Below, piece after piece: positions 6,970 to 60,179 of a stretch of DNA of 64,000 nt. The notes under the pieces are model-generated. The model was not told where the DNA came from and ran no database searches. It saw only the letters and a list, made by a program, of their open reading frames with translations. Each line of letters opens with the position of its first letter. Within the stretch, counting starts at the first letter, position 1. The DNA comes from Acetobacter senegalensis. Its GTDB lineage: Bacteria > Pseudomonadota > Alphaproteobacteria > Acetobacterales > Acetobacteraceae. The stretch lies in contig NZ_LHZU01000139.1 of NCBI RefSeq assembly GCF_001580995.1, positions 1 through 64,000 of the forward strand. Direction: 5' to 3'. The position numbers and the translations under genes were made by a program.

Positions 6970-7045
6970 TGGCGTCCCGTACGGGATTCGAACCCGTGTT
7001 GCCGCCGTGAAAGGGCGGTGTCCTAGGCCTCTAGACGAACGGGAC
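6970..7045 (-). tRNA. tRNA-Glu (anticodon UUC)
   Basis: The minus strand folds as a complete tRNA: acceptor GTCCCGT pairs with ACGGGAC, the anticodon loop is CTTTCAC (anticodon TTC), the T arm contains GGTTCGAATCC, the discriminator is G and CCA is encoded at 6972-6970. Its 3' end faces the integrase gene, so it is very likely the attachment site of the element filling the left of the window. Confidence 0.95.
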
Positions 7046-17984: not shown

Positions 17985-19145
17985 TTACAGCACCAGCGCG
18001 TGTAGAAGGGCTTCCAGTCGCAGGCGGCCTTCCGGCGTAGCGCGTAGGGTTGTGGCGCTGCGTTGCAGATACCCTTCTTCAATGGCGGCGGCCAGAATGG
18101 TTGGGTCTGTGGCCTGTTCCAGTTTCAGGCCTGTACGCGCTTCAAAGCGGGGAAGTGTCAGGCCCTCGCTGACACGTAGGCCCATCAGCAGCATTTCACG
18201 CGCACGTTCCAATGGCACGAGGGCTTCCTGAGAGGTCTGGCCGGTGCCTGTGCGTTCTACCAGATCAGCCCATGGTTCCGGGGCGCGGTGGCGGCGGGTG
18301 GCGAACAGGTCCGTGCCTTGCGTGACGCGCCCGTGTGCGCCGGGGCCAAGCCCCAGATAATCTCCGTAGCGCCAGTATGTCAGGTTATGGCGGCTTTCAC
18401 TGCCCGGCTTTGCATAATTGGAGACCTCATACCCGGCGAGCCCATGGCGGCCGGTGACGGTTGCGGTTTCCTCATATAAGGCGGCGGCCTGATCTTCATC
18501 TGGTAGGGTAAAGGCGCCGGTGCGGTACAGGGCTTCAAATTTGGTGCCGGGTTCGATGGTCAGTTGGTAGAGAGAAACATGGTCCGCCACCAGTTGCAGG
18601 GCGGTATCCAGTTCGGCTTTCCAGTCTGCCAGAGATTGGCCGGGGCGGGCGTAGATCAGATCAAACGTGATGCGCGGGAACAGGGTGCGGGCTGTTTCCA
18701 GTGCGGCGAGTGCCTGCCGGGCGGAATGCTGCCGGCCCAGAAACTGGAGTGACGCATCATCTAGCGCCTGTATGCCCAGAGAAACCCGGTTGACGCCTGC
18801 CTGACGGAAGGCGCTCAGGCGGCTTGCTTCCACACTGGTGGGGTTGGCCTCCAGTGTGATTTCCATGTCCGGCAGGGGATCAAACAGGCTGGTGGCGTCT
18901 TCTATCAGGGCCGCCACGTTCTCCGGTGCCATCAGGGATGGCGTGCCTCCGCCAAAGAAGATGGAGCCCAGCTTACGACGACCAAGGCGTGCGGCATCGT
19001 GCGCAAGTTCTGTGCGCAGCGCTTGAGCAAAGCGGGCTTCCGGCATCCTTTCCCGTACGTGTGAGTTGAAATCACAGTACGGGCACTTGGCCAGACAGAA
19101 TGGCCAGTGGATGTAGAGCGCAAGGGGTTCGGTGGACTGGGTCAG
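17985..19145 (-). CDS. hemW: HemW, radical-SAM heme chaperone; apparent CTG start
   Basis: HemW-type radical SAM protein (HemN-like), 386 residues if started at CTG 19145. The first ATG (19046) would remove the iron-sulphur motif. In frame upstream lies [20 protein letters not shown], whose Cys 17, 21 and 24 bind the [4Fe-4S] cluster. Between that motif and the preceding in-frame stop there is no ATG, GTG or TTG. The CTG overlaps the kup stop (CTGA) and has AAGGTGG at ribosome-site distance. Further family marks are [29 protein letters not shown] and [21 protein letters not shown]. The known role is heme insertion into respiratory proteins rather than coproporphyrinogen oxidation. Confidence 0.9.
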
Positions 19146-21163
19146 ATAGCCACCTTGACGCCCAACTGCACCACGCGATCAGGCGGGATGCGGAAGAACT
19201 CCATGCTGGATGTGGAATTGCGCGCCATGAACATGAACAGGGACATGCGCCAGTGGGACAGGCGCGGCACGGAAGACCGGGTGATGAGTTCGCGTGACGT
19301 GAAATAGGAGGCCTGGAGCGCGTCAAAATCCACGCCATTGGCCTTCAGATCTTCCAGTGCACGCGGGATATTGGGCATTTCCATAAACCCGTAACGCAGG
19401 ATCACGCGGTAAATGTTGGGAGCCAGTTCTTCAACAGAAACACGGTGGCCTCGGTCTGCTTCCGGCTGATCAAGGTTCTGCACAGTCACAAACAGCACAT
19501 GGTCATGCAGGATCTTGTTATGCCGCAGGTTGTGCAGCAGGCAGGGGGGCACAAAGTCTGGCGTACCTGTCATGAACACGGCCATGCCGGGCACGCGGAT
19601 AATGCGGGACTGGGGCAGCCGCGCAATAAAGGAGCCCATAGGCAGACTGTCCTGCCGTTGACGGCTGACAATCAGGCCGCGTCCTTTTTTCCATGTGGTC
19701 ATCATCAGGGTCAGAACACAGCCCAGCAGGACCGGCACCCAGCCACCATCTGGAATTTTGAGCGCGTTGGCGGAAAAGAAGGTGAGGTCAAGCAGCAGGA
19801 AGCTGCCGAACACAGCGGCCACTTTGTAGCGTGACCAGTTGAAGTGGCGGCGGAAGACCACAATGGCCAGAATGGAGGTGCAAATGAAGGTGCCGGTAAC
19901 CGCGATGCCGTAAGCTGAGGCCAGCGCATCAGAACTACGGAAGGCTACAACCAGCAGCACGGCTCCCACAGCCAGAAAGCGGTTGAAGTCGGGCAGGTAG
20001 ATCTGGCCTTCTTCTTCCGCATTGGTGTGGGTAATGCGCAGCCGCGGCATGTAACCAAGCTGGATAAGCTGACGGCAGATGGAGAACCCGCCAGAAATAC
20101 CGGCCTGGCTGGCAATAACCGTTGCCAGTGTGGACAGCACGATCATGGGGGCCTGCATCCAGTGCGGGCACAGCAGGAAGAACGGGTTCACCAATGCTTT
20201 GGGGTCGGAAATGACCAGCGCCGCCTGCCCGAAATAGTTCAGCACCAGCATGGGCAGCACAAAAAACAGCCATGCATAACGGATGGGCGCACGGCCAAAA
20301 TGCCCCATATCGGCATACAAGGCTTCCGCCCCGGTTACGCACAGCACCACGGACCCTAGGGCAAGGAAGGAAAGCTTGCCGTGATAAAAGACGAACTCCA
20401 GCGCATAGGTAGGAGAAAGCGCCATGAGAATGGCCGGGTGATGCAGGATTTCCAGCAGCCCCAGAACGCCCAGCGTGCCGAACCATAGCAGCATCACAGG
20501 CCCGAATATGGCCCCAACCTTGCCTGTGCCGATCCACTGGACACTGAACAGGCTTATGATGACGATGATGGCGAGGGGGATGACAAAATCATGCGCCGCC
20601 GGAACACTGACCTCCACCCCTTCAATGGCGGAGAGCACCGAGATGGCAGGAGTAATGATGCCATCCCCAAAGAACAGACAGGCCCCGACAATACCAACCA
20701 GCCCCAATGCGGTTCTGACCTTGGTGCTGGTGGCCACGCGCTGGGCGAGAGAGGTGATGGCAAGAATGCCGCCCTCTCCATTATGGTCGGCCCGCATGAT
20801 GAGCAGGACATATTTGACCGTCACGATGAGGATGAGCGTCCAGAAAATCAGACTGGCGACGCCCATGATCTCCCACGGTGCCACGGAGTGGTGGCCGGAG
20901 ATGACCTCCACAGTGGAGCGGAAGGCGTAGAGCGGGCTGGTGCCGATATCGCCATACACCACGCCCAGCACGCCCAGAAGAGCAGCAAACCCCACGGGGG
21001 CGGCGGTGTGTTGTGGCTGGTCCGCATCAAATTCGGTAATATGACGTGGCGCTGGCTGCTCGGCCGTATGGGGCTGCGTGGATTTACCGGAATCGGCCCC
21101 GGCGGGTGTGCTGGTTGGATCGGTCATGTCAGTTCTGGCTCCACGTGGCGCGTGGGAGGTCAC
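19142..21163 (-). CDS. kup: Kup, low-affinity potassium uptake protein
   Basis: Kup/HAK/KT family K+/H+ symporter, 673 residues from GTG 21163 or 661 from ATG 21127; neither start has a strong ribosome site. About twelve transmembrane helices follow a polar Pro/Thr-rich N-terminus. Recognisable family segments are [46 protein letters not shown], the [12 protein letters not shown] loop and a cytosolic C-terminal domain. It takes up potassium. The stop overlaps the hemW CTG start by four bases, so the two are probably one transcript with coupled translation. Confidence 0.94.
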
Positions 21164-32114: not shown

Positions 32115-34970
32115 TCAGACTACTTGGTGCACGGCTTTGGCCAGTTCGGCCAGACCGTCTTTCAGGCTGCCCCGAATATGCACGCGCAGAGCCCGGCGGC
32201 CACGTTCGGCCAGCACATCAAAGTCTCCCCGCGCCTGAGCCGCTTTGACAACCCCGAAGGAGTAGTTCTCGCCAGGAACCGGCAGGTCATGGGCATCATC
32301 GGCTGTAATTTGCAGGAAAACGCCGGTGTTGGGGCCGCCTTTGTAGGCCTGCCCGGTGGAGTGCAGAAAACGGGGACCGAACTCGGCCGCTGTTGCTACG
32401 GTTTTGGCGTCACGGATTTTCAGACGTGTGTGCTGAATCCATTCCCGCGTTGAGGCGTCCCGTTCGATATAGGCCAGCAGGGCGACATAATCCCCGGCTT
32501 TTACACGATCGAAATGGGCCTTCAGAATGGCTTCAGCGCTATCGCCTTTCAGGGCAGCGGCATTGGTCTTGTCTGCAAAGAAGGCAAACGGGCCGTGTTC
32601 CGCAAAAGGCTGTTCGGCAGGCAGTTTGCCGGTTTTGTTGTAGGCATCTGTCAGCTTGCGGGTTTCAACCTTGCTGGCTTCCACATCAGGCTGGTCAAAC
32701 GGATCAATGCCCAGAAACGCGCCTGCGACCGCGGTAGCCAGTTCCCACCGGAAGAATTCCTGCGCAATCTGGCGTTTGCTGTGCAACGTGATGGTCACTA
32801 CCGGCTGCCCGGCGTCAATCAACGTGGCAATGGCTTCATCCTGTTCATGCCGGTGTTCTGGTGCCAGACGTAGGTACACAAACAGACGATCCGTGCCATA
32901 GCGTTTGGGGCCGCCCAGTGTTTCTTCATCAATGGGGATAATGCCCTTGCCGTGCTTGCCGGTGGATTCCGCAACAAGCTGTTCCAGCCAGGCGCCAAAA
33001 TCGGCAATCTGCGGTGTGGCAATAACGGTCAGCTTGTCATGCCCGAACTGCGTTGCGGCAACGCCCAGAATGGTGCCAAGCAATACGCCGGGGTTCTGGG
33101 CAGGGGGCACGCTGGCATCGCTCATGCGCACGCCGCGCAGAGCGTCTTCCAGAAACAGTTTGACCGGAATGCCAGAGGCTGCGGCGGGAACCAGACCGAA
33201 ATTAGAGAGCACGGAATACCGGCCACCAATCTGCGGTTCGCCAGCAAAAATTTTCCAGAAACCTTCTTTCTTGGCAAGGGCTTCCAGCTTGGATCCGGGG
33301 TCTGTAATCGCGACAAAATGGCTGCCAACTTTCTCGCCCAGCGCCTTTTTGGCGAGGTCATGAAAATAGGCCAGCATGATGTTGGGTTCAAGCGTGCCGC
33401 CAGATTTGGAGGCAACGATGAACAGCGTATTGGCCGGGTCAATCTTCTTGGCGTAGGTCGCAACCTGCTGCGGGTCCGTGCTGTCCAGCACATACAGGTG
33501 GCCAAAGCCTTCATGCTTGCCGAATGTTTCCGCCAGCACTTCCGGACCAAGGCTTGAGCCGCCCATGCCCATCAGCAGAACCTGTTTGAAACCACGGGCT
33601 TTAACTTCAGCCTGAAAGCTTTCCAGTTCGGCAACGTGGGCAAGGCGTTCATCAACCGTGTCCAGCCATTTCAGCCATTTGGCTTCTTCACCGCCGGTCC
33701 AGACGGAGGCATCCTTGTTCCACAGTTTGCGGATAGTGCCATCCTTGCACCAGTCTTTCAGACCTTTTTGCACGGCGTTTTCGAGGTCTGCCGGAAGGGC
33801 TGTCTTGATGTCCGTCAGCTTCTCACCCAGCAGGGCCTTCTGCTTGGCGGCCACAGACCCCAGAAGACCATCAAAAGCCTCCGCAAAGGAGGTCACACCT
33901 TCATCAACCAGAATGCGCGTAACGCCATCCAGGTTCAGGCCAAGCCGTTCAGCTTCCGCCAGAACGTGGCGTGCGGCATCAATTCCGGTGCCCAGGGTTT
34001 CCTTGACCGTACCATGATCACGGAAGGCATCCATGGTAGCGGGGGGCAGGGTGTTAACCGTGTGCGGGCCGATCAGGCTGTCTACATACAGCACATCGCT
34101 GTAAGCCTTATCCTTGGTGCCGGTAGACGCCCACAACAGGCGCTGTGGCTGTGCACCGGCTGCTTCCAGCGTTTTCCAGCGCGGGGTCTGGATAATTTCC
34201 TGCCAATACACGTAAGCCAGTTTGGCGTTGGCGATGGCCACCTTGCCACGCAGGACCTTCAGGGCCTCGGCTTCCGCATCTCCGGCTTTGACGCGGCGGT
34301 CTATTTCCGCATCAATCTTGCCATCAATGCGGCTGACAAAGAAGGAGGCCACGGAGGCCACACGGGAGATGTCTCCCCCTTTTTTATGCAGGTCTTCCAA
34401 CCCGGAGAGCCATGCATCCACCACCGCTTTGTAGGCGGAAAGCGCAAAAATGAGCGTTACGTTGACATTGATGCCCGCTGCGATGGTTTCCCGAATGGCA
34501 GGGATACTTTCCGGTGTGGCCGGAATTTTGATCATCAGATTGGGTTCAGCCACATCGGCCCACAGGCGGGCTGCTTCATGGGCCGTGCCTTTTTCGTCCC
34601 GCGCGAGATAGGGGGAGACTTCAAGGCTTACAAAGCCATCTCGCCGCTTGGTCTGCTCATAAACCGGTGCCAGAACATGGGCGGCCTTCTTGATGTCCTG
34701 CACGGCGAGTTTTTCATACAGCTCACCGGGGGAGACGATTTCTTCCGCCAGAATGGTTTTGATCTGGGGGTCGTATTCCGTGCCTTCTCCCATGGCTTTC
34801 TGGAAGATGGCCGGGTTGGACGTCACGCCACGCACATCATCAGTCTGCACCAGACGTGCCAGAGACCCATCTTCCACAAAGGAGCGGCGGATGAAGTCCA
34901 GCCATGGAGACTGTTGAACCGCTGCCAGAGCCTGTAGCGGGTTTGCCACCTGAGTGTGTGAAGCAGTCAT
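32115..34970 (-). CDS. tal-pgi: Fused transaldolase and glucose-6-phosphate isomerase
   Basis: A 951-residue bifunctional enzyme (ATG 34970, with AGAAGGGAC upstream). The N-terminal about 370 residues are transaldolase: [23 protein letters not shown], Schiff-base lysine region [23 protein letters not shown] and [14 protein letters not shown]. The C-terminal about 560 residues are phosphoglucose isomerase: [46 protein letters not shown], and [18 protein letters not shown] close to the end. It feeds fructose-6-P made by the non-oxidative branch straight back to glucose-6-P, suiting a cyclic pentose-phosphate pathway. It sits between tkt (99-base gap) and gnd (23-base gap). Confidence 0.96.
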
Positions 34971-50369: not shown

Positions 50370-51215
50370 TCAGGATTCAGCGGTTTCAGCATCCGTAAGC
50401 GGCAAGCCTGCATAAGCGGGGCTGCGGCGGGCATGCATGATCAGCGCACCACCAGCGATAATCATGGGAATGCACAGCAATTGCCCCATGGTCAGCCCGC
50501 CCGGCAGGAAACCGAGAAAGGAATCTGGTTCACGGAAAAATTCGCAGAAACTGCGGGCACAGCCGTAACCCACAAGAAACAGCCCGGCCAGAAAGCCGGG
50601 GCGTTCGCGCAGGCTCTGTTTGCGAGAGGCTGCGAACATGACCAGAAACAGCAGCAGCCCTTCTGTCAGCGCTTCATACAGTTCGGAGGGATGGCGGGGA
50701 ATGCCTCCGGCATCCGGAAAAATCATGGCCCAGGGCAAGCTGGCTGGCGCTTCCCGCCCCCAGAGTTCGCCATTGATGAAGTTGGCAATCCGGCCCAGCC
50801 CCAGCCCGATTGGCACGGCCACCGTAACGCGGTCAGCAAAGGCAAGAAAATTGATGCGATTGTACCAGGTAAACAGCGCCATCGCGATAATCACGCCAAG
50901 TGCTCCACCATGGAAGGACATGCCACCCTGCCAGACTTTGAGAATGGCGAGAGGATGCGTGAGGTAATAGCCCGGCTGGTAGAAGAGGATATAGCCGAGC
51001 CGTCCGCCCAACAGCACGCCAAGGGTGACCCACCCTAGAAAATCGTCAGCCTGTTCTGCTGTGCCCGCTCGGGGCGCCAGCCTGACGAGCCGCCGAAGCA
51101 GGGCGATGCCCAGCACGATGCCTGCAATATAGGAGAGAGCATACCAGCGGATGGTAAGCGGCCCCAGATGCACCAGTACAGGGTCAAACTGGGGAAAGAG
51201 AAGAACAGGCAGCAT
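50370..51215 (-). CDS. lgt: Prolipoprotein diacylglyceryl transferase
   Basis: A 281-residue integral membrane enzyme adding diacylglycerol to the lipobox Cys of prolipoproteins. It has IRWYALSYIAGIVLG, GGRLGYILFYQP, WQGGMSFHGGALGVI with the essential His, and the signature GRIANFINGELWGRE, followed by RHPSELYEALTEGLLLF and FFREPDSFLG. About seven transmembrane helices. It heads the lgt-midA-pgeF-lipoprotein run. The several lipoproteins in this window are its expected clients. Confidence 0.96.
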   Translation of the reverse strand: MLPVLLFPQFDPVLVHLGPLTIRWYALSYIAGIVLGIALLRRLVRLAPRAGTAEQADDFLGWVTLGVLLGGRLGYILFYQPGYYLTHPLAILKVWQGGMSFHGGALGVIIAMALFTWYNRINFLAFADRVTVAVPIGLGLGRIANFINGELWGREAPASLPWAMIFPDAGGIPRHPSELYEALTEGLLLFLVMFAASRKQSLRERPGFLAGLFLVGYGCARSFCEFFREPDSFLGFLPGGLTMGQLLCIPMIIAGGALIMHARRSPAYAGLPLTDAETAES

Positions 51216-60102: not shown

Positions 60103-60179
60103 TGGCGCACCCGAAAGGACTCGAACCTCTAACCCCCAGATTCGTAGTCTGGTGCTCTATCCAGTTGAGCTACGGGTGC
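60103..60179 (-). tRNA. tRNA-Arg (anticodon ACG)
   Basis: The minus strand reads GCACCCG (acceptor), a D arm with AGCTCAACTGGATAGAGC, anticodon stem CCAGA/TCTGG around CTACGAA (anticodon ACG), T arm AGAGGTTCGAGTCCTTT and acceptor CGGGTGC, with discriminator G and encoded CCA. It decodes CGN arginine codons. No integrase gene adjoins it. Confidence 0.95.

Follow-up and report, generated by a model that had tools for sequence, protein, structure and literature searches.

The window analysed here, that is, the whole 64,000-nucleotide stretch of Acetobacter senegalensis DNA, carries on its minus strand a kup gene with hemW directly downstream. The kup product matched the K_trans and K_trans_C domains and scored 571.9 bits against TIGR00794 (cut-off 539.6). 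Read from a CTG codon, hemW encodes a protein of 386 amino acids, in which Thr-Gln-Ser would follow the start residue, with Radical_SAM and HemN_C domains, and scored 311 bits against the HemW profile TIGR00539, well above the curated cut-off of 205.4. Its cysteines are arranged as CX3CX2C and lack the fourth cysteine of HemN, in line with the definition of HemW in the available part of PMC11442138; this and the other papers are cited here from partial texts. The features of the window are as follows.

19142 to 21163, minus strand: kup, potassium uptake protein, the upstream gene (start at 21163 putative; TIGR00794, K_trans and K_trans_C)
17985 to 19145, minus strand: hemW read from CTG, 386 amino acids plus stop (TIGR00539 and translation)
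19142 to 19145, minus strand: CTGA, putative hemW start overlapping the kup stop (sequence; same layout in relatives)
19143 to 19145, minus strand: CTG, proposed hemW start codon (the sole codon one base from ATG above the cysteine motif)
19150 to 19156, minus strand: AAGGTGG, proposed Shine-Dalgarno inside kup (sequence and relatives)
19179 to 19181, minus strand: TGA, previous in-frame stop of hemW (sequence)
19074 to 19097, minus strand: codons of the CxxxCxxC motif, CLAKCPYC (sequence and translation)
19044 to 19046, minus strand: first ATG of the hemW frame, likely automatic start (sequence; Met in 7/24 CTG genomes)
6970 to 7045, minus strand: tRNA-Glu (ttc)
60103 to 60179, minus strand: tRNA-Arg (acg)

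At the very start of the window, positions 1 to 130 match, at 92%, a transposase of the IS5 family carried by an Acetobacter pomorum plasmid. Two other CTGA junctions, located with a crude gene caller, were rejected as starts. The one at 32115-32118 follows a transaldolase/phosphoglucose isomerase gene, and it is not a start because the next gene begins at ATG 32091, which is preceded by AAGGAA and followed by an NAD domain from residue 11. The other, at 50373, lacks a Shine-Dalgarno and is followed by an ATG 15 bases on.

On the minus strand kup ends in ...GTC AAG GTG GCT ATC TGA, with the stop at 19144-19142. As hemW lies in the -1 frame relative to kup, the CTG at 19145-19143 consists of the final C of ATC followed by TG from the kup stop, so that the two same-strand genes overlap in an NTGA arrangement. 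The first-pass annotation had placed the hemW start at this CTG, and the window sequence agreed with its reasons. The three cysteine codons (19097-19074) lie upstream of the first ATG (19046), which encodes residue 34 of the 386-residue protein. No ATG, GTG or TTG is found in the hemW frame from the TGA at 19181-19179 through the CxxxCxxC motif, a stretch that includes 21 open codons above YIHWPFC; among the codons of the open stretch above the motif, only CTG is near-cognate, differing from ATG by one base. Finally, AAGGTGG (19156-19150) ends four bases before CTG, with 7 bases from its AGG to CTG.

A later start, at ATG 19046 or, in some relatives, at the GTG of a YVHW sequence, would leave the upstream part untranslated. 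These are the first standard starts, and a crude codon-usage caller indeed placed the onset of coding at 19046. Nevertheless, the 22-codon block before this ATG, YIHWPFC...HVRE, differs between relatives almost exclusively at third codon positions (11 pairs compared); in one pair, L001 and L021, the differences by codon position were 0, 0 and 12, with no amino-acid change. Starting at ATG 19046 would also remove the first strand and all three cysteines, and Met is present at this position in only 7/24 CTG genomes. The first-pass annotation had warned that such a start would lose the catalytic centre; the loss stands, but "cluster-binding cysteines" is the better term, because HemW has no radical SAM enzyme activity according to the part of a review available (PMC11442138). 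The GTG of YVHW is absent from 12/24 of these genomes and would cut the first strand, which spans residues 8-13 in an AlphaFold2 model (mean pLDDT 84.4). We therefore attach very little probability to a later start.

From residue 6 on, the protein aligns to 1olt, a solved structure of HemN, and HemW is, on these comparisons, conserved from about this residue. The preceding tail, from CTG to EPLAL, is free in sequence, with a flat distribution of differences by codon position (15, 13 and 17) that became 17, 13 and 32 when the last five codons were included, in a count based on nine hand-picked pairs, some sharing a row. Family members without kup upstream begin with MEPLALY or similar, and these N-termini agree with the CTG in L130 (CTG AGC GAG CCG) and with a TTG in L162 (TTG AGC GAG CCG).

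We read 108 hemW loci of the family. These comprised 48 of 49 genomes of the same genus (G035, with a distant match only, was excluded) and 60 from other genus-level groups, chosen non-randomly, on score and a probable kup neighbourhood, from the 380 family genomes that gave a match; 23 further genomes and 3 further genomes of group g85 were added later. L190 was omitted since it repeats the place of L134, and L001 and L003 are almost one sequence (99%). In L129 (G028) and L200 (G367) hemW is broken by in-frame stops, reflecting either assembly error or decay.

In 99 of the 108 loci kup lies directly upstream of hemW. Among these, 55/99 have hemW in the overlap frame with that frame open (CTG 40, TTG 14, GTG 1), an arrangement that, on these counts, is not due to chance. 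No standard start occurs between the kup stop and YxHWPFC in 51/99 kup-adjacent genomes, 34 of them in the overlap frame (21 CTG, 12 TTG and 1 GTG) and 17 in another frame. As an in-frame TTG precedes the kup stop by 8 bases in all 17 of the latter, a start candidate lies at or beside the overlap in 51/51. In groups g42 and g73 (L131-L133, L136, L138, L141, L146, L148, L152-L155, L174-L176 and L179), hemW is in another frame and the sole near start is this TTG 8 bases before the kup stop, giving a longer overlap.

The 21 CTG-only genomes belong to groups g1 (11), g85 (6), g23, g9, g37 and g79, and CTG is the only near-cognate codon common to all 21. The 3 further g85 genomes, inspected after the pattern had been set, all showed CTGA with an AGG Shine-Dalgarno (3/3; g85 total 9/9), which brings CTGA without a standard start between the kup stop and the motif to 24 genomes in six genus-level groups. 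In 12 of the 24 (11 from g1, including the window, plus L197) the frame contains no ATG, GTG or TTG between the preceding in-frame stop and the end of CxxxCxxC. The other 12 carry a GTG encoding the Val of YVHW, inside the predicted first strand, and in seven of these kup also contains, about 100 bases upstream, a GTG or TTG in the hemW frame. The tightest case is L008, where the hemW frame is closed by a TAA three codons before CTG. Within the clade of the window, the CTG frame is kept in 12/13 rows across five spacer lengths (29, 35, 41, 50 and 98).

As a control, we considered loci in which kup was not recognised upstream. A standard start (ATG, GTG or TTG) lies 6-18 codons before the motif in all 31 of them (9/9 among the 108 loci and 22/22 among the 23 further genomes), so within this set the standard start is missing only beside kup. 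In the 23rd further genome, L224, hemW is next to kup and in the CTG frame, and a GTG precedes the motif by 9 codons. At the sequence level, comparison thus shows that an ordinary start is absent from the right place, that the protein is conserved and that the situation recurs across genus-level groups. It is highly likely that translation of hemW begins at the CTG overlapping the kup stop.

The genome is a draft of 148 contigs, and a sequencing error could have made CTG from another codon, which the first-pass annotation had named as a refutation of its proposal. Because CTGA recurs in 24 genomes of six genus-level groups (the same codon being present in G047 and 22 further genomes besides the window), such an error is very unlikely, to the point of being negligible; moreover, ATC fits the Kup C-terminus found throughout. 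A quick maximum-likelihood tree of 116 HemW rows, built with the N-terminal tail excluded and without the three later genomes, places the CTG state in distant clades. Seven changes are needed for CTG versus the rest, at least five of them forced by starred branches, in a tree whose outgroup rows do not fall on one side.

What fixes the start letter appears to be the last codon of kup. This codon encodes Ile in 98/99 genomes (ATC 84, ATT 14) and is GTG in the remaining one; ATA is found in 0/99 kup-adjacent genomes. Because kup ends in Ile-TGA, an overlapping start is limited to TTG (from ATT), CTG (from ATC) or ATG (from ATA), and the hemW start codon is in this sense tied, as read from the alignments, to a silent position of kup. 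The expectation of the first-pass annotation that relatives would carry ATGA was not borne out, the alternative state being TTGA, and an ATGA ancestor was rejected on the same count of kup genes ending in ATA.

Both states were compared with codon usage in kup, in counts that treat related genomes as independent. In group g54 the last kup codon is ATT in 13/13 genomes, compared with 31/156 Ile codons elsewhere in those kup tails, and in the single genome of g48 it is again ATT, compared with 0/9 elsewhere. These figures point to selection for a TTG start in g54 and g48, against their own Ile codon bias. With regard to the naming of g54, the HemW of L032 (Neokomagataea) is identical to that of g54 member L142. 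For CTG, selection on the letters themselves was unsupported. ATC is also last in 43/43 genomes where hemW sits in frame 0 or 1. The CTG letters are thus conserved in a non-specific way, and CTG may be tolerated rather than chosen. In g1, ATC ends 47/47 Ile-ended kup genes, versus 269/507 Ile codons elsewhere in the tails. As a separate observation, ATC accounts for 84/98 of the kup-terminal Ile codons overall, well above g1 usage elsewhere, even where it is unusable as a hemW start.

Within g1, the putative Shine-Dalgarno inside kup, AAGGTGG, is present in 10/11 CTG-only genomes, 7/11 others in the CTG frame and 4/25 out of that frame; the contrast between the first and last classes gave a Fisher p of 4e-5 on counts not corrected for kinship, and a kinship-aware design left only 3 independent pairs and no power. 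In CTG genomes outside g1, the kup Arg codon at the pairing position is the rare AGG in 9/10, and in 3/3 of those added later, compared with 3/175 Arg codons elsewhere in the same kup tails. These kup codons look selected for their Shine-Dalgarno role. L021 and L169 nonetheless lack a strong Shine-Dalgarno, and that of the g54 TTG genomes is weak. AGG stands 7-8 bases from the start, a usable distance that fits the mean spacing of 7.9 +/- 2.8 nt given for Gluconobacter oxydans (PMC5756330).

Such a site could also bring fresh ribosomes to the CTG without re-initiation, with kup translation at most opening it. The usable spacing is compatible with this, as is a predicted fold of the window junction RNA in which GGUGG pairs with CCACC just downstream. 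However, shuffles fold just as strongly (z 0.27) and the fold is missing from the L008 prediction, and across four sequences three were not better than shuffles, with L197 at z -1.93. In addition, NTGA gene pairs are commonly coupled, according to the available parts of PMC6728339 and PMC12548453. We consider fresh recruitment possible but rather unlikely. A further alternative is a -1 frameshift at the end of kup yielding a Kup-HemW fusion, given that hemW lies in the -1 frame of kup and that this frame is open across the junction. Here the TAA three codons before CTG in L008 leaves a few codons for a slip, reading of the L008 and window junctions revealed no slippery run, and relatives without kup upstream start hemW independently; we give this fusion very little probability.

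Returning to a start at the CTG, we infer by analogy that it is reached by coupled re-initiation, a step suggested by the work on NTGA pairs (PMC6728339, PMC12548453), and coupling to kup fits the CTGA geometry. The ribosome would terminate kup at TGA, would be held by AAGGTGG, and would restart at CTG with initiator Met-tRNA, giving a HemW that begins with Met. The yield is probably modest, since the first base of CUG pairs poorly with initiator tRNA in the structures described in the accessible part of PMC11497404, which were obtained with a tRNA variant. Tentatively, these elements can be joined in a wider reading, in which the last Ile codon of kup would dictate CTG or TTG for hemW, CTG would have persisted across genera of one family, its weakness would be offset by Shine-Dalgarno codons in kup (the rare AGG, or AAG-GTG), and comparable CTGA starts would widely escape annotation in acetic acid bacteria, as common gene finders disallow CTG.

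In the available text, Prodigal does not consider CTG (PMC2848648). Automatic annotation may therefore truncate hemW, and perhaps other overlapped genes, in some of the acetic acid bacteria, and a truncated hemW would lose its cluster-binding cysteines. Among the matches listed in the open-licence literature, we found no description of a CTG start of hemW; PMC4648390, whose available part deals with eukaryotic cells, was set aside. CTG starts are rare in general. Switches to CUG are given for 2/61,358 AUG, 1/5,080 GUG and 1/2,468 UUG starts in the excerpt of PMC5622118, and this rarity agrees with N-terminal proteomics of E. coli, where the near-cognates among 688 annotated starts were only 50 GTG and 10 TTG (PMC13245402, in part). 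The observation on hemW is confirmed, and its reading as a CTG start is very probably right, with TTGA as the alternative state. As a natural CTG start it has deep support from comparison, and its persistence has a simple reason, namely a letter fixed by the neighbour's last codon. As hemW starts across relatives include CTG, TTG, GTG and ATG, they also form a series for measuring how overlap and Shine-Dalgarno compensate for a weak start.

A start at a non-standard codon is a known kind in infC, where it serves as an autoregulatory signal for IF3. Like hemW, infC is a conserved gene without ATG, GTG or TTG at the expected start, and we know of no comparable reason in the case of hemW. In L191, infC itself lacks ATG, GTG or TTG before the conserved VNEEIRV stretch, and AGGAG is followed by ACCATAGCC, ATA or its neighbour being the likely start. 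The coupled NTGA (-4 nt) pairs described in parts of PMC6728339 and PMC12548453 resemble kup-hemW in that start and stop share bases and the Shine-Dalgarno lies in the upstream gene; here N is C, and the coupling is drawn by analogy. CTG starts are also annotated for 22/973 G. oxydans genes with a mapped 5' UTR (PMC5756330, in part), so that such starts are rare but not new in the family. The first-pass description of a rare natural CTG start is supported comparatively. The G. oxydans genes share with hemW a CTG start in the same bacterial group, whereas the hemW start is backed across six genus-level groups by missing alternatives and its identity is linked to the final codon of the neighbouring gene. 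Compared with the known HemW heme chaperone (TIGR00539; PMC11442138, in part), the protein of the window is ordinary in sequence and only its start codon is unusual. The hemW start is a well-conserved further case of a rare but known kind.
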